Positions 28,930 through 45,344 of a stretch of DNA of 64,000 nt are shown piece by piece. Numbering within the stretch: position 1 is the stretch's first letter; every line of letters begins with the position of its first letter. This DNA comes from Puniceicoccaceae bacterium 5H. Lineage in GTDB: Bacteria > Verrucomicrobiota > Verrucomicrobiia > Opitutales > Oceanipulchritudinaceae. A program made the position numbers and the translations under genes. A model generated the notes under the pieces. That model worked only from the letters and a program-made list of their open reading frames with translations, was not told where the DNA came from and did not search any database. The stretch lies in assembly GCA_009772895.1 (NCBI GenBank), contig WOUP01000003.1:372001-436000 (forward strand). Reading direction: 5' to 3'.

Positions 28930-30765
28930 TCACACCGCTGCGAGCTGGCGCTCGAGCTCGCGGTTGAAGGCGATGCGGAGGCGGTGGCGTTCGTCGAAGG
29001 GGGCAAAGGCTGTGTCGAGCGCATTGCGCTGCAGCTGGATGATCTGCGAGCGCGTGATGTCAGGGCAGAGCTTGGCGAGAAAGAGCAGGTTGTCGTTGAG
29101 GCTGGCGGCGCTGATCCCGATGTTGTCGGTATTGACGGTGACCTTGATGCCCGCTTGCAAGTAGCGAAGCAGGGGGTAGTCGTCCGTTTGGCCCGGCATC
29201 GGTCGGAACCCCTTGATCTGGTAATTGGCGTAGGGGCACATCTCCACGCCGATCCCACGCTCGGCAAAGGCCCGCATCAGGTCGCGCGACTGGGTGAGGT
29301 GCAGCGCGTGGCCAATGCGGCGGGCGGAGAGGCGGTAGACGGCCTGCCAGATCGATTCCACGTCATCATTCTCACCTGCGTGGGCGGTCACGGCGAGGCC
29401 GCAGCGGTGCGCGGCATCAAAGTCGTGCTGGAAGTAGAGCGGGCGGGTTTCCTTATTTTCGAAGCCGGCCAGGTCGAGCCCCACCACATTGCAGCACTCG
29501 GAGGCGTAGGTGCGTTGACCAGCGGTGACGGCCAGTGCCACGTGGCGGCTGATGCTCGATAAGTCGCCGGACTGGCGGCGGCTGACGATGATGATCAGAT
29601 TCACCTGGCAACGCTCCCGGGGGTCGCTCTGGGCCATGCATCGCTCGAAGGTGCTCTGGATGTCTTGCAAGACCGACCAGGCATCGCGGTCGCGCGCATA
29701 GTTGTTGGGCGAGCAGCGCACCTCGGCGTAGCGGACCTTCGTTGCGACAAAGTGGGCGTAAAGGCCTTCGATTTGCGCCCGCAGGCAACCGGCATCGCTC
29801 AGGAGAGAAGACCCGTTCGCATCACCCAGCCGCATGTAGGTGTCGAGCGGGCAGGGCTGGTGCGGGCGCGGCCAGCCCTCCGGAGGAAGAGGCACACTCG
29901 CGGTCACGCCAGGCAGGTGGGGGGAGGTCGCAGCGGCACGCACCCGCTCCAGTTCGGGGCCGTGAGTGGCAAAGCCGCCCAGGTGGCAATGCAGCTCCAC
30001 CTTGGGCAGGGCGGCGATCCAGGCGGCATCGGCCGAAGGATCCAAGGGGGCTTCGAGCCAGCGCTGCTGGGACGCGTTGGCCAGCAGCAGGGCGGGGAAG
30101 GCCCGATCGGCCAGCGACTCGCGTTGTTGCCACAGGGCGTCAGTTGCCTCCGCACGCTGGCGCAAATAGTCCGACAATGCGCGGTCGCTGACACTGACGG
30201 TCCGGGCCGGAGGCTCCGTCGAGATGATGTCGAGCGGGAAATCGTTGGGCCTCAGGGCCGCCACCATGGGGCGAGCAGCGCGGGGGCCGAGCGTCACAAA
30301 GTCCAGTCGGCCATCCAGTGCCGCTTGGTGGGCCGCCGCGGGCTCGCGCGGCTCCTCTCCTTCGCGCACCAGGACGTGGTAAAGATCTGCTGCCCCAAAA
30401 GTCTCCGCTGCCTGTTGCAGGGCCGCTGTCATGGTCTTGCGCCCACCGCTCATGCACACCCAAAGCGGGGCCGCCACCGTATGCTGCAGCTCCAGATACC
30501 AACGCATCAACGCCTCGGTATAGCCGGCATGGTCGGCGGCGCTGCGCACGTCTTGCAGGCCTTCCAGCCGCGTCTGATAAAACGGTATCTCCAGTTGCTG
30601 CTCCACATACTGCCGCACCTCATCCAGCCCGTTGACTTGCCCCGACAACGTGAAGCAGTAAAGCGCTGCCGGGCGAGGGCCATCGGCCATGCGAAAGAGC
30701 GCTTCGATTAACACGACCGGAGAGGCGCCCACTGACGCGAGCAAGACTGGCTGTGCAGCATCCAT
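28930..30765 (-). CDS. cad1: CARF-adenosine deaminase fusion (Cad1-type CRISPR effector)
   Basis: A 611-residue protein with two parts. Residues about 5-185 form a CARF domain (VLLASVGASPVVLIEALF; ligand-loop SGGRKT at 106-111). Residues about 250-611 are an adenosine/AMP deaminase-type TIM barrel. Its metal site is visible: H259-C-H261, H462 in HAGE (with general acid E465), H486 in RIGHAL, and D547 in NTDN. Cad1 enzymes are known to be switched on by cyclic oligoadenylate from Cas10 and to deaminate ATP to ITP, halting growth of infected cells. The usual deaminase TDD motif reads TDN here. The gene follows array 1, separated by a terminator. The start could also be GTG at 30768 or 30825. 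Confidence 0.92.
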   Translation of the reverse strand: MDAAQPVLLASVGASPVVLIEALFRMADGPRPAALYCFTLSGQVNGLDEVRQYVEQQLEIPFYQTRLEGLQDVRSAADHAGYTEALMRWYLELQHTVAAPLWVCMSGGRKTMTAALQQAAETFGAADLYHVLVREGEEPREPAAAHQAALDGRLDFVTLGPRAARPMVAALRPNDFPLDIISTEPPARTVSVSDRALSDYLRQRAEATDALWQQRESLADRAFPALLLANASQQRWLEAPLDPSADAAWIAALPKVELHCHLGGFATHGPELERVRAAATSPHLPGVTASVPLPPEGWPRPHQPCPLDTYMRLGDANGSSLLSDAGCLRAQIEGLYAHFVATKVRYAEVRCSPNNYARDRDAWSVLQDIQSTFERCMAQSDPRERCQVNLIIIVSRRQSGDLSSISRHVALAVTAGQRTYASECCNVVGLDLAGFENKETRPLYFQHDFDAAHRCGLAVTAHAGENDDVESIWQAVYRLSARRIGHALHLTQSRDLMRAFAERGIGVEMCPYANYQIKGFRPMPGQTDDYPLLRYLQAGIKVTVNTDNIGISAASLNDNLLFLAKLCPDITRSQIIQLQRNALDTAFAPFDERHRLRIAFNRELERQLAAV

Positions 30766-30778
30766 CACGTTTGCATCA

Positions 30779-30792
30779 TGGGGCGAAGCCCA
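30779..30792 (-). promoter_or_regulatory. small hairpin just upstream of the cad1 start
   Basis: On the minus strand GGGCTTCGCCC forms a tight stem-loop ending about 14 bases before the ATG at 30765. No clear Shine-Dalgarno is seen between it and the start. It could dampen translation, or it may lie inside the coding region if the upstream GTG is used. Confidence 0.35.
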
Positions 30793-30826
30793 CGCCGTCG
30801 GCAAGTCATGACTGAGGGCGTACACT

Positions 30827-30908: not shown

Positions 30909-32954
30909 CCAGCTGTTGCCTGTCGGCAGATGGGTCCTTTCGGACAGCTGAGCCCGCACACCCTGTCTGTCCACTCGCAAATCACGTCACCAATGCCTGT
31001 CGGCAGATGAGTCCTTTCGGACGGCGTATGCCCTACCCAATGGGTTGACATCCCAGCCGAGTCACCAATGCCTGTCGGCAGATGAGTCCTTTCGGACTTC
31101 AACATCAACAATGCCATGTCGTTCTTCCACAAGACCAAGTCACCAATGCCTGTCGGCAGATGAGTCCTTTCGGACTCGTCAGCGCTATGAAGATCTGGGG
31201 ATTTTTCCCCGTCACCAATGCCTGTCGGCAGATGAGTCCTTTCGGACCGATTCCGCTAATTCAAGCTCTATATCCGAGCAAAGTCACCAATGCCTGTCGG
31301 CAGATGAGTCCTTTCGGACGCCTAACGACCGTGGGTTCCAGCGATTTTGGTGCGCTGTCACCAATGCCTGTCGGCAGATGAGTCCTTTCGGACCGCGATT
31401 GAAAACGCCGAAACCATTTGCAGTGAATATCTTGTCACCAATGCCTGTCGGCAGATGAGTCCTTTCGGACAATCAACCCTAAGGGTCAATTTATTGTCGG
31501 AGAAAAATGTCACCAATGCCTGTCGGCAGATGAGTCCTTTCGGACGGGCCAGCCCAGCAACCGCATCGAGCACATCCGCTCGTCACCAATGCCTGTCGGC
31601 AGATGAGTCCTTTCGGACTCAAGTTTAACTTTTATCAGCATCTTGAAAATCTTATCCGTCACCAATGCCTGTCGGCAGATGAGTCCTTTCGGACCTTACG
31701 TCATTGTTAACGGCAATGGAGACCAGCAAGTCACCAATGCCTGTCGGCAGATGAGTCCTTTCGGACAGTGCAGGTTAAAGGGTATGGCGTTATTACCCGT
31801 GCTCAAGTCACCAATGCCTGTCGGCAGATGAGTCCTTTCGGACAATCCCTGCAACGACCTTTAAGATTAGCTTTTTCAGCAGTCACCAATGCCTGTCGGC
31901 AGATGAGTCCTTTCGGACGCTTGGCCGTATCGGCCTGCCCGGCGGTAAGGTTGACGTCACCAATGCCTGTCGGCAGATGAGTCCTTTCGGACGAAGGGGG
32001 AAATTGACGCCCTTGGCGAGGGCGAGAAAGCGTCACCAATGCCTGTCGGCAGATGAGTCCTTTCGGACGGGCGACCGCCCCGCCTACTCGCCGAGAGAGG
32101 TTCTGTCACCAATGCCTGTCGGCAGATGAGTCCTTTCGGACGTGAATTCACCGCCTACCACGGCATCAGCACCAGTCACCAATGCCTGTCGGCAGATGAG
32201 TCCTTTCGGACCCATTGAGTTCAAAGAAGAACCACGTTGGCCATACAAGTCACCAATGCCTGTCGGCAGATGAGTCCTTTCGGACACTTGACACCAGTCG
32301 GAACATCGTCAACCGCGACGTCACCAATGCCTGTCGGCAGATGAGTCCTTTCGGACCATTTCAACCGCCTGAAAATAGCTTTGCGTGAATGCGTCACCAA
32401 TGCCTGTCGGCAGATGAGTCCTTTCGGACTTATGACGCTGAAACGGCGCATGATACTGCCTTTGAATCGTCACCAATGCCTGTCGGCAGATGAGTCCTTT
32501 CGGACCTTGCAAATAAGGATAAATGGGTTTTCGCGTAAGTTGTCGTCACCAATGCCTGTCGGCAGATGAGTCCTTTCGGACGAAAATGGCGACCTTTTGG
32601 CCGCCACCACGCGCGCCGTCACCAATGCCTGTCGGCAGATGAGTCCTTTCGGACTTAGTTTACGCCGAGTTTCATCCAGATATTTATCATTAATGTCACC
32701 AATGCCTGTCGGCAGATGAGTCCTTTCGGACATATCATGGAATTCAACTTTATCCGCCCCGAAGATCGTCACCAATGCCTGTCGGCAGATGAGTCCTTTC
32801 GGACAGTATGTTGGGCATGATTGATCTCCTAGAACAAGGAGATCGTCACCAATGCCTGTCGGCAGATGAGTCCTTTCGGACTCTCATGCGAAAATACACC
32901 AATGGAAATGTAACTGTGTCACCAATGCCTGTCGGCAGATGAGTCCTTTCGGAC
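30909..32954 (-). CRISPR. CRISPR array 1: 27 full repeats plus one decayed, 37-bp repeat
   Basis: The 37-bp repeat, read on the minus strand, begins GTCCGAAAGGAC (a 4-bp stem with GAAA loop), has the core CTGCCGAC and ends ATTGGTGAC. Twenty-seven copies run from 30986 to 32954 with essentially no variation. A worn copy at 30909-30945 forms the left end. Spacers are about 33-40 bases. The decayed copy at the left, the terminator beyond it and the leader homology at the right all show that transcription and new-spacer addition start from the right. Repeats differ from array 2 at 2 of 37 positions. Confidence 0.97.
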
Positions 32955-33140
32955 TGCGGCTATGTAAGTCTTTGGCAATGAGGGTGGCAAGTCGTGAATG
33001 TGTCGGCAGGACTGAAAATGCCCACCTGACGCGGAACGTTTTGCTGGCGAGGGACGGCTGATGGTCGTGTAAGGTTTTGATGTCAAGGAACATGGGGAAT
33101 GCGTCGGCAGACGGGCGTTTGGCGGGGTTTTGGGCTGCCG
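32955..33140 (-). promoter_or_regulatory. leader of CRISPR array 1
   Basis: The 186 bases between the TIGR02710-type gene stop and the first repeat are homologous to the leader of array 2. The last 59 bases match at 32 positions without gaps, including the end C-T-T-n-C-A-T-n-n-C-C-G-C. The octamer CTGCCGAC, which is the repeat core, occurs 71 and 172 bases from the same octamer in the first repeat, exactly as in array 2. Confidence 0.75.
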
Positions 33141-34359: not shown

Positions 34360-35214
34360 TTATGATGGTGAGACCCAGCTCATATTGTTGAGAATCTCTC
34401 CGATGGATTTCGGTTGGTAATGCTTTCGGTGACAGTCGATTGCAGCCTGTATGTTTTGATTCGTGACTCCCGTCACTTTGGGGCGGCAATCGACCACGGC
34501 TACGATTCTAAAATCGTTGTCATGCAATTTCGTAACCCGAAGTTTTAGCGGAGATGAGCGGCGGCCGGGATGGATGCAGCCGAATACTTTTCCTACGACG
34601 GGGATGTTGTTGCCATCCAACGTGTCGGATATCGCACATCTTGCCTTTTCTGCCGATGGGAAGAACGCTTTAGAGATTCCGTAGCGCAATTGGCTTTGTG
34701 AACCTACGACGTTCGCCATCATTTGATACCATTCCTCTGTAGTCCGAGGGGATTGATCGAGGCAGCGCAGGGAGCCGCCTCCTCGATTGGCGCGAGTGCC
34801 GAGCGCTCCAGCCAGTAACCAACAATTGAGGGAACGCTCCAGGAGCTGGCGTTGTTTCTCCTCAAGCTGCCGTCGTTCAAACACATGAACCTTGAACTTA
34901 GTCCCGGCAGGAACGGAGGCTGCGAATGCTTTTTTTTGCTTATGATGGGGCAGGCGTGGCTTGTCGATTGGTTCGAAGTTAGGTGTTTCTACTCTGATGA
35001 CAATGCTGCTAGTTCGTTCGACCGATGATTCCTGCCCGGTAAGCTTAATGCCGCCGAATATGGCACGCTCTTGCTCAAAGCTTCCTCCCAAAAGGCGAAA
35101 CCACTGATGAAGTTGCCCCCGAATAGATGCGGCCCGAATCTCCGGCTGGTTCTGATCCGCTCCGTAGCTGAAGATCGGCGTTACTGCTTCTACGTGATGG
35201 ACTCTGTTGTTCAT
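34360..35214 (-). CDS. cmr1: type III-B RAMP protein Cmr1
   Basis: A 284-residue RAMP protein. VTPIFSYGADQNQPEIRAAS followed by IRGQLHQWFRLLGG is the typical Cmr1 N-terminus, and NRGGGSLRCLD near residue 146 gives the Gly-rich loop. Cmr1 caps the Cmr complex at the 3' end of the crRNA and helps select target RNA. It overlaps the stop of cmr6 by four bases (ATGA). It is somewhat short for Cmr1 but contains both RAMP half-motifs. Confidence 0.85.
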   Translation of the reverse strand: MNNRVHHVEAVTPIFSYGADQNQPEIRAASIRGQLHQWFRLLGGSFEQERAIFGGIKLTGQESSVERTSSIVIRVETPNFEPIDKPRLPHHKQKKAFAASVPAGTKFKVHVFERRQLEEKQRQLLERSLNCWLLAGALGTRANRGGGSLRCLDQSPRTTEEWYQMMANVVGSQSQLRYGISKAFFPSAEKARCAISDTLDGNNIPVVGKVFGCIHPGRRSSPLKLRVTKLHDNDFRIVAVVDCRPKVTGVTNQNIQAAIDCHRKHYQPKSIGEILNNMSWVSPS

Positions 35215-36551
35215 GGCAGCTCCACGTTAAGAGTTCGGGCAACTTCTTCGACCGGGTTAAGAATTGCGGCTTTTTTCCGCTTCCGCCATGTCTTCAGTTT
35301 GGATTTGAAGGTTCCTTGCAATAGCCTCAGGTAGGCCGTTTGCTCTTCCACAGATTTTTCCTTCAACTCCTTTCCGAAGTCGGCGAAGGTAGGGTCGTCG
35401 AGCGCACTGATCTCTTCTGTGGCACGCTCAATGGGATCCATTTTTTCCAACCTCTCCTGTTCTCGACGAGCGGCTTCTTCTTTAATGGCTTTCTCCTTGG
35501 CGATTTTGGCCTCCTCCCTCTGTCTTTCTTCGAGCTCACGCTGAATTCTCTCACTGCAATCTATCACTTCCCTAAACCACCCATACCCGGCACCTGTTTT
35601 GGCGCCGACACCATAGACAGTGAGCGCTTGGATCAGCCAATCACGTGCTGCGCTCAGCAACTCACTGCTGTTGGCTCTCTGTTGGCCCACTGGGTTGAGC
35701 ACGAGACAGAAACCGAATTTCGCACCTGCCGCTACCACTGGGAAGTAGTTGGGGCGGGGGTTCTCTTCTCGAAGACTCCGAGGGTCCCCCGCTTTGTTGT
35801 GATTGTCCCCCGTGTAATAGACGGGCGTGTGCACATTGGTGATGTCGACTTCCAAGTGAGCCGCACCCACCGAGTATGCCGGCAGGAACGTCACCGCCCC
35901 CTGCAAATCCGCAGGCATATCTTTGGGGTTGAGGTGCTTCCAGGCCGCGAGCTCGCCGCCTTTCTCGAAGATGTCTGAGGTATAACCAAAGACACGACAG
36001 AATCTCTCCATAAGGCTCGCTTTGTCCGCATCCGGCGCGGCGTGCAGTTCTGCCAACGCCGCGTGGCGAGTGATGCCCTTCACCGCGCTTCCCGGGATAA
36101 AAGGCTGGCCAAAGGTCCGATCGAGACAGATGCCACCGTTTTCAATCACGCCGTCGCTCAGGTTGATCGCCATCCGGGACTTCAGCTCGCCTTCCAGCAC
36201 GCAGGCACCATGGCCATAGCTTTTCTGCACAAGGGCCATCAAGGTTTGCGTGTGGCGCCGTCGGGTTTCTTGCAGAAGGCCAATAGAAGCTTTTGTGGAT
36301 TGAATTTGGGAGAGGACAGTAGAATGTAAATAGTTGCCCTTCGCCTTCGCCAAGTCGGAAGCCAGAGCCTGATGCCCATGTCGGGAGGTTCGTAGCAGTG
36401 ACCACCGGCTAGCATGATTCAGTTTACCCTGCCACTCGGTCGACTGTTTGGGGACCACAAACTTGTCGAGGAGCAGCGATGCATTTTCCACCTCTGAAGC
36501 ACCTGGTCCGATTGCTTCTCTCAGGTCGGCGGTCATAGGTATCGGGTTCAT
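35211..36551 (-). CDS. cmr6: type III-B RAMP protein Cmr6, with long N- and C-terminal extensions
   Basis: A 446-residue protein, well above the usual 230-340. The RAMP core spans about residues 110-335: GHGACVLEGELKSRMAINLS, PFIPGSAVKGITRHAAL, and the Gly-rich GVGAKTGAGYGWF near residue 325. Residues 1-105 are an added helical region. Residues about 340-446 are highly charged and probably a coiled coil (RELEERQREEAKIAKEKA) ending in a basic helix. Cmr6 sits next to Cmr1 in the complex and touches the 3' part of the crRNA. It overlaps cmr5 and cmr1 by four bases each. Confidence 0.9.
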   Translation of the reverse strand: MNPIPMTADLREAIGPGASEVENASLLLDKFVVPKQSTEWQGKLNHASRWSLLRTSRHGHQALASDLAKAKGNYLHSTVLSQIQSTKASIGLLQETRRRHTQTLMALVQKSYGHGACVLEGELKSRMAINLSDGVIENGGICLDRTFGQPFIPGSAVKGITRHAALAELHAAPDADKASLMERFCRVFGYTSDIFEKGGELAAWKHLNPKDMPADLQGAVTFLPAYSVGAAHLEVDITNVHTPVYYTGDNHNKAGDPRSLREENPRPNYFPVVAAGAKFGFCLVLNPVGQQRANSSELLSAARDWLIQALTVYGVGAKTGAGYGWFREVIDCSERIQRELEERQREEAKIAKEKAIKEEAARREQERLEKMDPIERATEEISALDDPTFADFGKELKEKSVEEQTAYLRLLQGTFKSKLKTWRKRKKAAILNPVEEVARTLNVELP

Positions 36552-36922
36552 GCGCCAGCTTTCTCGTCTTTCGATTTGATGAAGCGGCGGGCGTAGTTGA
36601 GCCAGGCCATCGCTTCGTTTGTGGCCGCCCGGAGGCGATCACTGTCCGCATCCTGGGAAAGGAATCGGAGCATTCCCTCCGCAGTGCTTGCCGTGCTAGG
36701 CAAGATACCTACGTCAGGGTCGGAGAGATGTTGGGCCAGTGCATTAAAAGCAGCCTGCCAGCCCTCGCCCTTTTCAAACCCGAAGGCAGCCGCTGCAAGA
36801 AGTCCGTGGTTCATGACCAAAGGCGGAATCTTTTTGATAACTTCGCCGCCGTTCTGGCCTTTAACCTGGATGGATGATGCCTTCAGTGCATTCCGGGCGC
36901 GAATTTGGTCGAGATTCTTCAC
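36548..36922 (-). CDS. cmr5: type III-B small subunit Cmr5
   Basis: A 124-residue all-helical protein. It starts MKNLDQIRARNALKASS, and the IPPLVMNHGLLAAAAFGFEKG segment is typical of Cmr5. Cmr5 forms the inner filament of the Cmr complex, contacting Cmr4 subunits and Cas10. It overlaps both neighbours by four bases, so translation is coupled through cmr4-cmr5-cmr6-cmr1. The C-terminal ARRFIKSKDEKAGA is basic, as in other members. Confidence 0.92.
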   Translation of the reverse strand: MKNLDQIRARNALKASSIQVKGQNGGEVIKKIPPLVMNHGLLAAAAFGFEKGEGWQAAFNALAQHLSDPDVGILPSTASTAEGMLRFLSQDADSDRLRAATNEAMAWLNYARRFIKSKDEKAGA

Positions 36923-37770
36923 GCCGCACCTCCTGCGCGCTGAAGCTTGGAAGTCACAAAGCCAAGGCCGGCGGTATTATTGCCGCCCAGTTGTAAGAGT
37001 CGCTCCTGCTCAAGCTTCGCGCAAAAGGCGTCGAGATGGGGCCGGTCTTGCTCCTCCTTGAGCGGCAATAAAGTCACGCTGCTATAGAAGAGAGCTTCTG
37101 CCGGCACCGTTTCTTCATTGAAGAGGGCTCTAGGCTTCGCTGTTCCCGTTTCGTGGTTGATCGCGACGTGCTGGCTCACTTGGCAGGCGTTCATGGCGAA
37201 GTGTGCAAAATCACCGTCCGTCAGCAGGACAAAGCGCCCCTTGGCTTCCTGCAGCACGGCGTCGTTGAGCAGGCCCGAGAGGTGCGTGGCCCAGTCCGTC
37301 GGGAATTCGCCTTCGCTCTGGAAGACATATTCTTCGAGGGCCACTTTTCCGCCATTGAGTTGCACGGAGGGCCCCGCCAGGCAACAAGAGTCATTTGTCG
37401 GGCCTGAGATGCGCGGGAGGTCTAGGCCGGCGTCTCGCAGGTAACGGTTCAATGCGAGAGGGCAGGTGGCCAAGGCAAAGCCGCCTTTGGCTGAGCGAAG
37501 CGGGAAGAGCAGCAGCTTACCTTCTGCAAATGCAACGATGCCCGAGCGCGAATCGCCATTGTCATCTGCTTTGCCAAACAGCACGGTCGCACTGTCTTCG
37601 TTTTGTGGTTGCTCGGCTGCACGCAGGACGCCCTTAAGGCTGCTTCCCGGTATAATGGGAAACCCAGTATGGCGTTCGCGCTGAATCGGCTGATCGATTG
37701 CTCCGACGGAGCTCCCCGCGCCGATGTGCAGCGGGGTCCGCGTAAAAAGATAGAGAAGGTGCGTTTCCAT
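36919..37770 (-). CDS. cmr4: type III-B backbone RNase Cmr4
   Basis: A 283-residue Cas7-like RAMP. HIGAGSSVGAIDQPIQRERH places the catalytic aspartate at D26, the position known to cut target RNA at 6-base steps. GFPIIPGSSLKGVLR follows, and the C-terminal LGGNNTAGLGFV is the Gly-rich loop. Several copies of Cmr4 build the filament along the crRNA. The intact aspartate predicts active target-RNA cleavage. It is cotranscribed in the cmr operon, starting 10 bases after the cmr3 stop. Confidence 0.94.
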   Translation of the reverse strand: METHLLYLFTRTPLHIGAGSSVGAIDQPIQRERHTGFPIIPGSSLKGVLRAAEQPQNEDSATVLFGKADDNGDSRSGIVAFAEGKLLLFPLRSAKGGFALATCPLALNRYLRDAGLDLPRISGPTNDSCCLAGPSVQLNGGKVALEEYVFQSEGEFPTDWATHLSGLLNDAVLQEAKGRFVLLTDGDFAHFAMNACQVSQHVAINHETGTAKPRALFNEETVPAEALFYSSVTLLPLKEEQDRPHLDAFCAKLEQERLLQLGGNNTAGLGFVTSKLQRAGGAA

Positions 37771-37780
37771 ATAAAACAGG

Positions 37781-39064
37781 TTAGATGTTCAATTCCTCAA
37801 AGTTTTGCCACGTGGTGCACACGCCGAGGCCAAAGCCTTTCTCGCCGAGCAGCCCAGAACGTAGGTTGAGAATTTCGCCGCCCGCAGGTTTCAGTCCGTG
37901 CCAGTTCAAGACACTGACCAGCCTTTGGGCGTCGTCTTCTGATTCGGCCTCGAAGTAGTAAACGGACCCGGCGGGGACCGCTAGGAGGGTTGAGCGGGCG
38001 CCGTGTCTTCCCGACTGACCATCCGATTGAGCCCAACCGCTGACGATCTGGGGGCGGTTGATGGCGGCGGCTACCAGTCGGGCCCGGATCTCTCTTGGCG
38101 CTGCAATGCTCTTTCCCTGGGCGCGCAGTCGTCGCGCTTTGCCGGCACCGGGTCCGTCGACCAGTTTGACCTGCAGCGTTCCGTCTTCCTCCCTCACCCA
38201 GTTGGGCAGCCAGCCCCCCGGATGGCGATTACCGGTGCGCACGGCCTGGAATATGGCCGGTGTCAGCAAGATCCACTTGATCCGGCGGCCGTGACATTTT
38301 GGAGCGCTTGGCAGAGGAAGTTGGGATACAGTGCGGCGCTCGACGGTGCAGACACGCGACTCTCCGCCAAGACGTATTTTGCCTGCACTGGGAAATACCT
38401 CTTCCAGAAAATCCGCTGAATGAGAGCCAACCATGGGAAGTTGAGCGAGGGCGCCTAGACGGGCCGTTTCTCGCAAACGCATTTGAGCCCGCGAGTATAT
38501 CTTTCCTTCCTCTGTCGCGTTGGTGTCACTATCCAGCCCGATCCCAATCGTATGCTCCGCCTCGAAAAAGCGAGAGTCCGTTGGCCGCTCGAGCTTTCGG
38601 TCTTCCTGCCGGAGATACGCTTCGTACTCTTGCTGCGATAGCCATTGAGGCGCCGGATCCTTGCTCGGGGGAATGCGACTGCCCAAGGGAAGAAGTCCAC
38701 TCTTGAGGCTCGTGATCCCCGCGAGCGTTCCCGCTGGTGCGATTGACGCCTGAGTGGATAGTGTCTTCAGGTCTGCCGGCGCTGGAAAGAACCACTGCGA
38801 TTCGTTGCCGCTCGTCTCCACTGGAAACGGACCCACGCTAAATAGGGCGCCGAATTTTTCTTCCTGCACTGAGATCCTCTTGCCCCTGCGGCGGTGGACG
38901 GGGGGATTATTGCTAGGAGATACCCGGTGACAGGCCGCATGCAAGGCACTGTTGAGCGTAGTGGGAAGAGGCCATCGGTCTCCGTGCCCCATAAAAGAGC
39001 CTGTCATGGGGCGGCTGTCCTTGAAGAACAGCACATCATCGGGTCGAAATGTCAGTATTTGCAT
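37781..39064 (-). CDS. cmr3: type III-B RAMP protein Cmr3
   Basis: A 427-residue Cas5-like protein. FRPDDVLFFKDSRPM at residues 5-20 is the Cmr3 signature. The C-terminal GEKGFGLGVCTTW carries the Gly-rich loop. Cmr3 binds the 5' tag of the crRNA and docks Cas10. The start was set at the ATG at 39064, two bases after the cas10 stop. An upstream extension in frame is Arg-rich and overlaps cas10, so it was not used. Confidence 0.9.
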   Translation of the reverse strand: MQILTFRPDDVLFFKDSRPMTGSFMGHGDRWPLPTTLNSALHAACHRVSPSNNPPVHRRRGKRISVQEEKFGALFSVGPFPVETSGNESQWFFPAPADLKTLSTQASIAPAGTLAGITSLKSGLLPLGSRIPPSKDPAPQWLSQQEYEAYLRQEDRKLERPTDSRFFEAEHTIGIGLDSDTNATEEGKIYSRAQMRLRETARLGALAQLPMVGSHSADFLEEVFPSAGKIRLGGESRVCTVERRTVSQLPLPSAPKCHGRRIKWILLTPAIFQAVRTGNRHPGGWLPNWVREEDGTLQVKLVDGPGAGKARRLRAQGKSIAAPREIRARLVAAAINRPQIVSGWAQSDGQSGRHGARSTLLAVPAGSVYYFEAESEDDAQRLVSVLNWHGLKPAGGEILNLRSGLLGEKGFGLGVCTTWQNFEELNI

Positions 39065-39066
39065 GA

Positions 39067-41823
39067 TTACTCGTCTCCTTTCTCGCCTTTGTCCAACCAG
39101 GCGATAGTCTGCATCAGTCCTACTAGATCTCGAATTGCTTCGCTGGCGCTCGCGCCGCATACGGTCACTTGATTCCAGTAAGCATCGAAGAGCTCTCGAA
39201 GTGAGCCCACGCAATCTTTGGGATAGCGTTGGCGGCTCAGGATCTCTGTAATGTCTTTCCAGACTATTTCCTGCGCCATACTCACGAACGCGCTATCTAC
39301 GTTTCTGTCCTGATTCAGGCTGCTCCGCCTTACCGTATAGGCTTCGAGTACCGCAACCGTCGCATAAGGGAAGCGGGCTGAGAGGCTCGAGGCCTTTCGG
39401 TCGATTATCAGGCGCTGAAGAAAGTCGAATGCGGCACTACGACCTTCTTCATTCCAGCGAAGCCCCCATTCAATTGTTTCGCCGGAGCGCTTAAAGATGG
39501 AAATGGCATCAGCGGAGCGTCCAAGCCCGCCCTTTGCTCTGTCTGCCTTCGCTCGTTTTTCGGCCTTCTGGGCGGCGCGTACGAGATCTTGAAGAGGCGA
39601 TTTTACGTGGCCAATTGCGATCCCGCTCGAGACGGTTGCCGCTGGGCCTGGCACCACTGCATAGTAGGAAACGGGCCCCGCAGTGAAGTCATCTTGTTTG
39701 TCCAACGAAAAGGCTTTTCGTAGATCCTCGTGGAGGCGGATAAAGCCTTCTGGCGCTTCTCCGTCAAAGATTTGCACTTCGTCATAGCGCTCGTCTTTCA
39801 GCCAAACCCCACGCAGTTCAGCTAACGTCTTGTTGTCGCCGCGGAAGCCCGCACGGAGGTATCGAGCACAGGCAAGTGCCTTTTGTGCCGGCAAGATGGC
39901 CAAGACGTCATCCCCACCAGAGTAGATGAGACGCCCATTATGTGCTTCCACGATTAGGCGGGTCGTGAAGAGGCTGAAGTTGCCGAGTGCTTCGGAAAAC
40001 TGGAGGTGGTAAGACGGGCTGAGGGGGCGTGCTCCAGCGAAGAAGGTTTTCACATCGAAATCTTCCGTTTTCGCCGCCATCTCACTTTCGAAATACTTCA
40101 CTGCGTCCGGCGCTAGGCGGGAGCCAATGTGAGGGGCCTTTTCGCCCGAGAGCCACTTGCCGATCTGGTCGCCGTCGAGCGCGATGACCGCGTAGTAGCC
40201 CGACTCACGAGTGGAATCGCCCTTTGCAAACGGCTCCCCGCGTGCAAGCTCTGACAAGTCCGGCATGCTGAAGTCGAGGCAGTCTCCAGGGAAATGAGAG
40301 TCGAGCTCATCTTTTAGATAAGCATCGTGCCAGAAACGTTTGATCAGTGTGGACGCGCCCAGGATGTCGCCTTCCTTTAGCAAGTGCCGGTTTACTCTAG
40401 AGGCTTTCTCAATCAGCTTGATGACCTCCGGACTTGCGCGCAGGACCAGCTCTTCCTTGCCGTTGAGGCTATCCTTGTTCTGATCTGTGCCATACGACCA
40501 AGCGGAAGCGTCGTTCCAGGCATCAAAGGTGCGGCACTGCTTGGTGGCATCGAGGCCCCAGGAGCACAGCGCGTAGAGTAGAGGCCAAGCGGTTGCGGCG
40601 TGCTTCATCCCGTATGTGGTCTGGTGACCTGCGGGTATGCTTTCCCACATTTTGGCGATGTTCTCGACTGAAGCGTAGGCTGGGGGTTGCTCGCCGCGTT
40701 TTCGGGGAAGGAATTTGAGGGCGATGCCTTCTGCTTCTTTGAGTGTTTGAGGGATCGGCAGCGCATACCACTGCGTTTCGAGCATTCCTTTCAATTGGGC
40801 ATGGACACGATCCGGATAATAATCGCGTGATCGAGCCTCCAGGCCGGGGATCTTTCGCTGAAGCCAGTCGAGGACTGACTCACCAATTTCTCGAAGCGTC
40901 TGCCGCAGCACATCTCGGCACTTCCCGGCAATGCGCTCGCTTTGGTCCGCCGGGACCAAGGCCAGGAAGCGATTCGGCAGGCTGGGGAGCGTCAGGCGAG
41001 CACGCGAGAGAGGAGTCGTATACATGTTGCTGCTCATCGGATCTGCATCCGGTCCCAACTTGGTGTACGCTTGATCATAGACCGCCTTCTTTAAGGCGAG
41101 ATCGATCAAAGGCTGACCAAGCAGGTTGGGAAAAATGACGTGGTCTGGGCCCAGCTCGTTCGCGATGATACCCAAGGCCTTGGAGGCGAGAAAGCTGAGC
41201 AAATACGAACCGCTCCACAAGTCACGCAAGTTACGTGAGGCAGCGATGAAGGCCTGAACGGGTCCGATGCTGAACATCAGTAGCCCTGCCTGACCGTTCT
41301 TGTCACGCTCCATGCAGCCTTGGAAGGCCGAGGTCAGCGAAAGGTGATTCCATATCGTATGATCCGGAATCCGCGTGTCTGCGGGCAGGAAGGCCAAGTC
41401 CGGATTGTGCTCGGCAGCCCATTCCTTCCAAAACCGCCAACGTGCGATAAACTCCGCCCGGTCGTTCTTCTCGGTTAACACCGGAGCGGTGGTGGAAGAC
41501 ACCTCGTGGGCGGCAGAAACTCCACCCTTAAGCTTCTTGTGAGGATAGGAGACTCCTGCGCTCAAGGGATGTAAAAAGCTGTTCGTACCGTCCCCAAAGT
41601 TTGCCTTCATGTGGCGGTGGTCCGGGAAGGGGATGCGGTCCGCAGCAGCGGCAGCGAAGTCGGCGCCTTTTTCGAACTGCTCGTCTTGCGAAATGAGCAG
41701 CGAGCGCTCAAGGAGCCCGGCTAGCTGGACATGCTGCTTAACATCCAGTGCCTTTTCAGGTGGATCGTGCAGATAGGCGCTCAGTTTCTTGCGCCAGTAG
41801 GTGGAGTCTGGTTCTATAGACAT
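39067..41823 (-). CDS. cas10: Cas10/Cmr2, cyclic oligoadenylate synthase and HD nuclease
   Basis: A 918-residue protein, the signature subunit of the type III complex. The N-terminal HD domain is seen as LHDPPEKAL (H19-D20). The palm domains include LMFSIGPVQAFI near residue 182 and the cyclase motif GGDD at 636-639 (YSGGDDVLA). An intact GGDD predicts synthesis of cyclic oligoadenylate from ATP when target RNA is bound; the HD domain may cut single-stranded DNA. The ATG at 41823 (MSIEPDSTYW) fits the family N-terminus. The gene lies 14 bases after the NE0113-type CARF gene and two bases before cmr3. Confidence 0.95.
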   Translation of the reverse strand: MSIEPDSTYWRKKLSAYLHDPPEKALDVKQHVQLAGLLERSLLISQDEQFEKGADFAAAAADRIPFPDHRHMKANFGDGTNSFLHPLSAGVSYPHKKLKGGVSAAHEVSSTTAPVLTEKNDRAEFIARWRFWKEWAAEHNPDLAFLPADTRIPDHTIWNHLSLTSAFQGCMERDKNGQAGLLMFSIGPVQAFIAASRNLRDLWSGSYLLSFLASKALGIIANELGPDHVIFPNLLGQPLIDLALKKAVYDQAYTKLGPDADPMSSNMYTTPLSRARLTLPSLPNRFLALVPADQSERIAGKCRDVLRQTLREIGESVLDWLQRKIPGLEARSRDYYPDRVHAQLKGMLETQWYALPIPQTLKEAEGIALKFLPRKRGEQPPAYASVENIAKMWESIPAGHQTTYGMKHAATAWPLLYALCSWGLDATKQCRTFDAWNDASAWSYGTDQNKDSLNGKEELVLRASPEVIKLIEKASRVNRHLLKEGDILGASTLIKRFWHDAYLKDELDSHFPGDCLDFSMPDLSELARGEPFAKGDSTRESGYYAVIALDGDQIGKWLSGEKAPHIGSRLAPDAVKYFESEMAAKTEDFDVKTFFAGARPLSPSYHLQFSEALGNFSLFTTRLIVEAHNGRLIYSGGDDVLAILPAQKALACARYLRAGFRGDNKTLAELRGVWLKDERYDEVQIFDGEAPEGFIRLHEDLRKAFSLDKQDDFTAGPVSYYAVVPGPAATVSSGIAIGHVKSPLQDLVRAAQKAEKRAKADRAKGGLGRSADAISIFKRSGETIEWGLRWNEEGRSAAFDFLQRLIIDRKASSLSARFPYATVAVLEAYTVRRSSLNQDRNVDSAFVSMAQEIVWKDITEILSRQRYPKDCVGSLRELFDAYWNQVTVCGASASEAIRDLVGLMQTIAWLDKGEKGDE

Positions 41824-41837
41824 GTTGGCCTGTCGGC

Positions 41838-42968
41838 TTACGGGGTGAATGAAATGTTCTCGGGCGACACCTCGATGGAGATTCGGCCGCGCTGTGGTAC
41901 GAGACGTTGGATGTCCAGTGTGCTGAAGCCTTCGTTCTTGAGACGTTGGCGGATATCTGCCGCCCATTTTCGGAACTGCTCCTTGGGGTCGAGTTCCGCT
42001 TCAAGCACAGCGTGCGACCAGTGAGCAAAATCGTCTGGCTCCAGATACTGCCGTGCCAGCTTGCCAAGCTCTGGAGCTAGATCCAGATACTGCTCCAGGG
42101 GCCCGGTGTTTAGCGCCGCGCGTTTGGCTAGAGCAGCGTAAAAGGCGAAGGGAGCTGGAGGAAGACGCAGCATGGCGTGATTGATCCTCAGTTCTCCACG
42201 CTTCAGGTCGATATTCAGTTCGAGCTCGGAATCGACGTCCAGTGCTCGATTCCGGACAACTTTTACTAAGCTATCATAGCGATTTGCCGCTCGCTTCACT
42301 TCATCAGTGAACAGGTAGCGCAGCGGTACAAAAGGAACGTCGGCCAACGTTAATCGGGCATCGCGACTGTCCAGGCGTCTTGCCGTGAGGGGGCACTGGA
42401 AGGACCCGGGGCAGCTTGGGAAATAGAATTGTGGCAACCGCTCCCAAGGCTCGTCTACCAGGACGTGGACGATGCGGTCGCCAAACCCACCCACCAGGGA
42501 CATGATGCCCACCAAGAGGGCGCCCATACTCTTCCGGCCACCAGCGATGGAGGCGATGATACGATTTCTGCCATCGTCCGACAGACTGCGAACCAGCTGC
42601 AGCATGAAGTCTGCCGCTGCTTCGTTGTCTGCCGCCGTCTGGATGTCCGTCAGGTCGCGCTGTTGGTCGGCTGAGGGAATGACGCGGATGCAGGCTTCAG
42701 CGGGGCCGAACTGGGGAATCTTGATGTGCGCTCCGTAGATGCGCCGCAGCTCGTGGACCAACATAGACCAACCGCCGCCGGTGAAAAGCGCATCGCCAAG
42801 GCGCTTTTTGCCAGTCGTCGTGGTGACGACCACGATGCGGTCCGGGATGTCGGGTTCGCTTTCCGCATAGAGGCCGAATACCGTTTCCGTCAGCACCGCG
42901 GGTGATAATCCAATCAGTGCCACGAGGATGGATTCTTCGGATGAAGCTGATGACGCAGGTGAAGACAT
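41838..42968 (-). CDS. CARF protein of the NE0113/TIGR02584 type
   Basis: A 376-residue protein. Residues about 14-185 form a CARF domain (ILVALIGLSPAVLTETVFGLY; ligand-loop SIAGGRKSMG at 140-149), the same subfamily as the CARF part of Cad1 in this locus. Beyond residue 230 the chain is helical, with a winged-helix-like stretch near 270-300 (LRINHAMLRLPPAPFAF). No HEPN R-x4-6-H or PD-D/E-x-K site was found. Members are annotated as CRISPR-associated ring nucleases or Csm6-like proteins. Here it could degrade cyclic oligoadenylate or act as a cOA-sensing regulator. It is the first gene of the cmr operon. Confidence 0.8.
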   Translation of the reverse strand: MSSPASSASSEESILVALIGLSPAVLTETVFGLYAESEPDIPDRIVVVTTTTGKKRLGDALFTGGGWSMLVHELRRIYGAHIKIPQFGPAEACIRVIPSADQQRDLTDIQTAADNEAAADFMLQLVRSLSDDGRNRIIASIAGGRKSMGALLVGIMSLVGGFGDRIVHVLVDEPWERLPQFYFPSCPGSFQCPLTARRLDSRDARLTLADVPFVPLRYLFTDEVKRAANRYDSLVKVVRNRALDVDSELELNIDLKRGELRINHAMLRLPPAPFAFYAALAKRAALNTGPLEQYLDLAPELGKLARQYLEPDDFAHWSHAVLEAELDPKEQFRKWAADIRQRLKNEGFSTLDIQRLVPQRGRISIEVSPENISFTP

Positions 42969-44589: not shown

Positions 44590-44789
44590 CCCGGTAAGTG
44601 TGTCGGCTGCCAAAAACCTCCCAAAACGAGGGGCTGCCGACGCAATTTGTAAGTCTTTGCATATGAGTGAATTGTTGTCTTTTTGTGCGCTAGATCGCAT
44701 CGCGAAAGCGGCCTCACCATGGTGTATTTTGTGCCTGCCGACGCACCTTGACTTTGGGCCACTGATGTACAAGATCTTCCATCACCGCG
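44590..44789 (+). promoter_or_regulatory. leader of CRISPR array 2
   Basis: Two hundred bases separate cas2 from the first repeat. CTGCCGAC, the repeat core, stands at 44634-44641 and 44735-44742, which is 101 and 71 bases apart from the next copy and from the first repeat, as in the leader of array 1. The first copy has an inverted partner, GTCGGCTGCC at 44602-44611, across an A/C-rich loop; array 1 has a similar arrangement. TTTTTGTG and AT-rich stretches lie between. Confidence 0.75.
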
Positions 44790-45344
44790 GTCCGAAAGGA
44801 CACATCTGCCGACAGGCATTGGAGACGCGGTCAACTGCTCGATCACTGAGGCGCGGCCCGCGTGTCCGAAAGGACACATCTGCCGACAGGCATTGGAGAC
44901 AATTGCGACGATACAAAGATGCCGCAAAGCTCCCAACGTTCGTCCGAAAGGACACATCTGCCGACAGGCATTGGAGACATGGGGGGTGAGGTTTTTGATT
45001 TTCATTTGACTGATTTGGTCCGAAAGGACACATCTGCCGACAGGCATTGGAGACTTCGGGACAAAGCCCGAAAACCCAGAAACCTTCCTCTTCGGTCCGA
45101 AAGGACACATCTGCCGACAGGCATTGGAGACATAACCGCGAAAACTGCAAATGCCTTGTTCATGCTTTCGGTCCGAAAGGACACATCTGCCGACAGGCAT
45201 TGGAGACGCGACGGTTGTTTCGCATTCCTCACTGTATACGGTTTGGTCCGAAAGGACACATCTGCCGACAGGCATTGGAGACCGGGCGATGTGATGCGGC
45301 GGATTGTAGGCTGAGTCAGTGTCCGAAAGGACACATCTGCCGAC
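44790..45344 (+). CRISPR. CRISPR array 2: seven full repeats plus one truncated
   Basis: Repeats of 37 bp start at 44790, 44864, 44942, 45018, 45095, 45171 and 45246. They begin GTCCGAAAGGAC, have the core CTGCCGAC and end ATTGGAGAC. A last copy at 45321 keeps only its first 24 bases and then changes to unrelated sequence. Seven spacers of 37-41 bases lie between. The array follows cas1-cas2 directly and is read on the plus strand, opposite to array 1. Its repeat differs from array 1 at two positions. Confidence 0.97.

Follow-up and report, generated by a model that had tools for sequence, protein, structure and literature searches.

The gene described here, which its sequence identifies as cmr6 of a complete type III-B operon, encodes a protein with a helical C-terminal tail that is so far uncatalogued and typical of its clade. 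The tail is homologous between relatives, is restricted to cmr6 and has been replaced in one clade by a fusion to Cmr1; in other respects the protein is almost certainly an ordinary Cmr6, so we regard the gene as mildly unusual and not as a new system. Because the known Cmr structures were solved with tail-less Cmr6, a large group of bacteria may have a differently built complex head, although the overall picture of type III-B immunity would stay unchanged. We did not find a published description of the Cmr6 tail in the literature searched, which is weak evidence of novelty, most subscription journals being outside reach.

The cmr6 gene and its operon

The window, that is, the whole stretch of DNA analysed, consists of 64,000 nt of Puniceicoccaceae bacterium 5H (contig WOUP01000003.1, positions 372,001 to 436,000). 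Its operon runs in the order NE0113-type CARF gene, cmr2, cmr3, cmr4, cmr5, cmr6, cmr1 and TIGR02710/Csm6-like CARF gene, beyond which lie a CRISPR array and then a gene for a CARF-adenosine deaminase (Table 1). cas1 and cas2, named from their sequence, are located upstream of the operon on the opposite strand. Cmr3 scored above the Pfam and below the NCBIfam cut-off, and Cmr5 was recognized through Pfam only. The cmr6 frame shares 4 bases with cmr5 upstream and 4 bases with cmr1 downstream according to the ORF coordinates, and the C-terminal stretch therefore belongs to the translated frame. cmr1 has a separate frame, and Cmr6 is not fused to Cmr1 in the window.

Table 1. Features of the cmr operon and of the Cmr6 protein in the window
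Feature	Coordinates	Strand	Basis and remarks
cmr1	34360..35214	-	TIGR01894 and PF03787; own separate frame
cmr6	35211..36551	-	Open frame, 446 aa plus stop, no inner stop; TIGR01898
cmr5	36548..36922	-	PF09701
cmr4	36919..37770	-	TIGR02580
cmr3	37781..39214	-	PF09700 from residue 56; longest frame, true start probably further inside
cmr2/cas10	39067..41967	-	TIGR02577
Cmr6 N-terminal region, residues 1-110	36222..36551	-	Ordinary Cmr6 part by sequence; motif [S/G]-L-x-[L]-[D/E]-K-[F/Y]
Cmr6 RAMP (Cas7-like) core, residues 111-327	35571..36221	-	TIGR01898, PF03787, VIA Z 14.2 with 3x1l_H
Cmr6 charged helical arm, residues 330-370	35442..35564	-	Predicted helix; salt-pair pattern
Cmr6 C-terminal five-helix domain, residues 373-443	35223..35435	-	Predicted helices; homologous in 69 of 85 other tails
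Basic stretch KSKLKTWRKRKKAA, residues 416-429, inside the domain	35265..35306	-

Three side observations concern the locus as a whole. Cas10 keeps the GGDD motif and Pfam reported no HD domain in it, as expected for a cOA-making complex without a DNase domain. Two CRISPR arrays, at 30917-32964 and 44788-45344, contain 28 and 8 copies of closely similar, but not identical, repeats. Finally, the surroundings of the operon showed no cas6, and PF10040, the only Cas6 model used, matched nothing in the 98.64% complete genome G000.

The assignment of the protein is supported by TIGR01898 (Cmr6), which matched residues 124-326 with 84.8 bits (cut-off 51.1), and by PF03787, which matched residues 141-327. 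Moreover, the top structural matches of the predicted model were Cmr6 chains (9l7c_I at E 4.3e-11), and VIA aligned residues 8 to 327 with 3x1l_H over 214 residues at 3.3 Å. The window protein thus shares with solved type III-B Cmr6 the RAMP core, the place in the cmr operon and a long region before the core. However, the solved chains of Cmr6 type, six distinct ones, stop at most 6 residues past the core, where the tail would begin: in 3x1l_H, 9l7c_I, 9arw_H, 4w8v_A and 6s6b_I the match ends at most 6 residues from the chain end, and 9lq5_I (listed as a RAMP superfamily protein) is aligned through to its end, which leaves no room for a tail.

A sequence-only reading had proposed that about 105 residues were added at each end of the core. 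The lengths were roughly right (about 110-123 residues in front and about 119 behind), but the front 110 residues are, judged from sequence comparison, the normal N-terminal region of Cmr6 and no addition. With starts picked by hand beside the end of the upstream gene, 58-118 residues precede the core in all 31 Cmr6 measured (window included), among which the 110 residues of the window protein rank third. A motif S-L-x-L-[DE]-K-F/Y around L26, present in the Verrucomicrobiota-type rows and found as GLWLDKY in Thermus, has a leucine that is invariant in 18 rows, Thermus and Aureispira among them. The sequence match starts at residue 103 of A. fulgidus 3x1l_H and at residue 175 of 9arw_H, and a profile of 20 relatives aligns with the A. 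fulgidus Cmr6 from residue 66 on. Residues 1-110 are poorly modelled (pLDDT 41-76) and a profile of this region alone gave no match in the PDB at E up to 10; the kinship to solved Cmr6 N-termini is argued from position, from the whole-model alignment and from the presence of the motif in other phyla. By its own account, the same reading would be wrong if both regions were usual for Cmr6 of the clade and brought no extra fold. This holds for the front region; the tail is likewise ordinary in the clade, yet an added fold is predicted for it.

Predicted fold, distribution and divergence of the tail

The tail is predicted to form a long charged helix (about 40-46 residues) bearing a five-helix domain. 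In the model of Cmr6 alone (mean pLDDT 75.4), a helix at residues 330-370 is followed by five helices up to residue 440, with the domain helices predicted at 373-382, 386-394, 401-414, 416-424 and 428-440. A tail-only model based on 43 sequences (mean pLDDT 95.8, pTM 0.69) consists of one 46-residue helix and five further helices.

None of the Pfam, NCBIfam and PADLOC models reached the five-helix domain, NCBIfam having been compared with the whole window protein only, and some Cmr6/Csm3 library models extend a few residues into the arm. When 43 tails were compared with Pfam, each family matched a single tail with a best E of 4.6e-4 (among the matches listed, 25 of 28 families), and no PADLOC model matched the tail alone. 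Foldseek returned 35 matches of the tail fold in the PDB, with a best E of 2.7, and the best of 116 chains compared with VIA, beta-catenin repeats aligned over 71 residues at 2.7 Å, had a Z of 6.0, which lies under the tool's own meaningful level for helical folds. When the tail profile was run against all PDB sequences, the best match was 5h79_D (E 0.0023); in this repeat protein no separate match was significant, and we attribute the result to chance. The matches after it were at E 0.12 and worse. An origin of the tail domain from a Cmr5-like subunit was also considered but gained no support from a profile comparison with the Cmr5/Cas11 small subunit (probability 0.2).

To measure how common the tail is, we used a sample selected with the Cmr6 family model, irrespective of any tail. 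This model matched 44 of 387 Verrucomicrobiota genomes (41 over the cut-off), and the best 29 other Cmr6 places from the 44 genomes were measured; one of them (L022), cut by the contig end, was left out. Among the 28 relatives with a complete 3' end, 22 are tailed (one of them across a frame break), 3 are tail-less and 3 are fused to Cmr1. In 21 of the tailed relatives, 98-188 residues follow the core. The other one, L016, continues for 55 residues past the core, with the remainder of the tail directly behind in another frame (E 5.7e-10). Merely 3-6 residues follow the core in L007, L018 and L029, whereas in L011, L023 and L024 Cmr6 continues into Cmr1 in one chain. The proposed C-terminal extension is thus a real extra arm, but it is not special to this gene.

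A larger set of 94 distinct Cmr6 is tail-biased, the alignment used in its scan having consisted of tailed sequences only and 80 of its loci being the best of 190 relatives from that scan. It shows the same picture: 85 proteins have 80-240 residues behind the core, 2 have 15-80, 4 have under 15 and 3 have over 300. The 85 tails include a piece of a broken second copy (L121) and one lengthened by masked letters (L094). In all, L007, L018, L029 and L090 have neither tail nor fusion. An initial contig scan with the window protein alone gave 95 stretches, none of which was confirmed.

Some individual loci deserve mention. In genome G149 (L016 and L121), a run very rich in lysine closes the Cmr6 frame, and the tail domain is in another frame, a break that may reflect error, decay or slippage. 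Cmr6 of L126 (genome G114) is split into two frames of 262 and 261 codons, with the tail in the second. The tail-less L090 is filed under Candidatus Peregrinibacteria and falls inside the Verrucomicrobiota-type group of the tree, which suggests transfer or mis-binning.

Judged from these sequences, the tail constitutes one main domain family that is sometimes swapped for unrelated sequence. At E<0.01, an iterated profile started from the window tail recovered 69 of the 85 other tails but just 1 of 1700 shuffled ones; this profile was built on the same tails that it was scored against. A 43-row alignment of the main group was also compared with two sets that had been left out of it, with profile comparison probabilities of 97.5 and 93.3. 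In contrast, the tails of two other sets show no detectable relation to the main group (L043, L044 and L048, probability 0.7; L017, L032, L076, L085 and L107, probability 0.2). L032 comes from the window's own taxonomic family, in which 2 of 17 genomes (window included) gave a match.

The tail profile matched 19 places in 288 genomes of the phylum. By comparison with the coordinates of the family-model matches, 18 belong to a cmr6 or adjoin it directly (the window itself is among them, and one is in another frame), and the profile is therefore not a general helical match; the remaining one, in G172, is partial, contains a stop and has an E of 2.6e-4. Where the tail is missing from Cmr6, no frame encoding it elsewhere was matched, except directly behind cmr6 of L016. 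Divergence is much faster in the tails (mean identity 0.19) than in the cores (0.43), and core and tail distances correlate with an r of 0.28 over 83 sequences, a value reached by none of 2000 permutations.

Outside this group, five plasmid Cmr6 matches have 68 (Azospirillum), 97 (Thermus), 3, 0 and 2 residues behind the core. The Cmr6 of Thermus brockianus (L134) resembles the window protein in having about 97 residues at this place, but they show no detectable relation to the window tail (profile comparison probability 1.2). Of 29 frames examined in loci from two additional phyla, the tail profile matched 2. Both were starting loci, L042 (filed under Planctomycetota) and L092 (filed under Hydrogenedentes); the tree places them within the group of the window, likely as a result of transfer or mis-binning. 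The other loci of these phyla have no tail, a short tail, another stretch or a Cmr1 fusion (L149, L151, L153 and L171). Some tails or fusions (L011, L023, L143, L153 and L171) end in a common stretch around KTKKGGWKA...GPIQN that is OB-like by eye; Pfam reported no domain in it (L011, L023 and L143 scanned).

Possible roles at the head of the complex

Cmr1 and Cmr6 have been described as capping the complex at the crRNA 3' end in Thermus and Pyrococcus (PMC8376896, PMC5965380). Most of the crRNA 3' end is described as exposed at this cap, with target pairing starting from this side (PMC8376896), and the crRNA 3' end as sandwiched between the two proteins (PMC5965380). A fusion of both proteins is already in print as Cmr1-6 of Microcystis aeruginosa (PMC11855584). 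Like the window protein, the fusions have extra sequence behind Cmr6, and L011, L023 and L024 also have operon partners alike to those in the window. However, the fusions add Cmr1 itself, whereas the window protein adds a helical domain and cmr1 is a separate gene. In L011, L023 and L024, Cmr1 starts about 10 residues after the Cmr6 core, and the C-terminus of Cmr6 can therefore adjoin Cmr1. The tail thus very likely starts beside Cmr1. In a quick tree with a weak root, the fused proteins and two tail-less Cmr6 form one clade inside the tailed group (5 rows, SH-aLRT 97), as if the covalent Cmr6-Cmr1 link had replaced the tail.

These observations suggest a mainly structural role for the tail at Cmr1 or at the crRNA 3' end, a reading to which we would give a little less than an even chance. 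The tail would depart from the core at the crRNA 3' end, at the junction with Cmr1; its domain could then turn back and clamp Cmr1, and perhaps also the exposed 3' end of the crRNA, in place. It would then be a structural part of the complex head where target RNA first pairs, and not the docking site of one effector. We favour such a clamp because of the position of the crRNA-3' cap, the short linker of the fusions and the fusion clade. Both structure predictions covered Cmr6 alone, and we infer the tail's position, partner and role. Against the clamp stand the relatives that live without tail or fusion, and Cmr1, in which a comparison of 4 tail-less and 3 fused loci with 79 tailed ones revealed no clear compensating block. 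Moreover, the fast divergence of the tail and its replacement by unrelated sequence argue against a tightly conserved interface. If the tail does hold Cmr1, this would explain a tuning of Cmr1 retention and why some lineages fuse both proteins. The fullest form of the proposal is tentative and, taken as a whole, rather doubtful: an undescribed helical domain on a rigid charged arm would be standard in Verrucomicrobiota-type III-B Cmr6, would clamp Cmr1 and the exposed crRNA 3' end, would gate the first target pairing and would be exchangeable for a covalent Cmr6-Cmr1 link.

The main rival of the structural clamp is that the domain is an RNA-binding add-on, gripping the crRNA 3' end or the incoming target RNA through a basic face. 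Of 82 tails, 79 carry a net positive charge over their final 72 residues (mean +5.0), which fits both the structural clamp and RNA binding. The most basic 14-mer has a constant location within the domain in 74 of 83 tails (KSKLKTWRKRKK in the window). Some relatives from Planctomycetota and Hydrogenedentota also hold other C-terminal stretches at this place, some of them OB-like by eye though unconfirmed by Pfam. However, only 8 of 83 tails have a basic stretch beyond what composition predicts, in the window tail the corresponding 72 residues amount to just +1, and neither Foldseek nor VIA found a likeness to a known RNA-binding fold. We consider RNA binding somewhat improbable as the main role.

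Less probable again is a tail that has no selected role and is just a tolerated linker or appendage, drifting fast. The low mean identity of the tails and the absence or replacement of the tail in several relatives would fit such drift, but the tail is kept in most relatives picked by the family model, and it contains a recognisable common domain with a confidently predicted fold.

The C-terminal extension was also proposed to be coiled-coil-like. It is indeed strongly charged, but a coiled coil fits poorly: opposite-charge pairs at i/i+3,4 exceed the arm's own shuffles (p<0.05) in 38 of 76 arms, whereas a heptad pattern reaches p<0.05 in 7 of 76, so that the arm looks like a single charged helix. 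Both signals are marginal in the window arm (salt pairs p 0.027, heptad p 0.023), and the latter is what speaks for a coiled coil that would pair two Cmr complexes, an arrangement we regard as very unlikely.

Finally, the arm had been suggested to recruit a CARF effector to the complex, and three CARF proteins are indeed encoded beside the window operon. After removal of duplicates, 41 tailed loci had 4 kb or more of sequence on either side; these were scanned for three CARF kinds only, NE0113-type, TIGR02710-type and CARF-deaminase. Thirteen loci have the NE0113-type only, 8 the NE0113-type and the TIGR02710-type, 5 the CARF-deaminase and the NE0113-type, 2 the TIGR02710-type only, 2 the CARF-deaminase only and 2 all three, and 9 have none. 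The tail is not tied to any of the three effector kinds. Since it occurs with each kind, in varied combinations and also where none is present, and since the cOA made by Cas10 diffuses, so that docking would not be needed, recruitment is unsupported and the least probable of these roles. The CARF-adenosine deaminase of the window (28930-30825, minus strand) combines a CARF domain (PF09623, E 5.8e-8) with an adenosine deaminase domain (PF00962, E 3.4e-41), and a protein of this kind has been described as Cad1 (PMC11645235).
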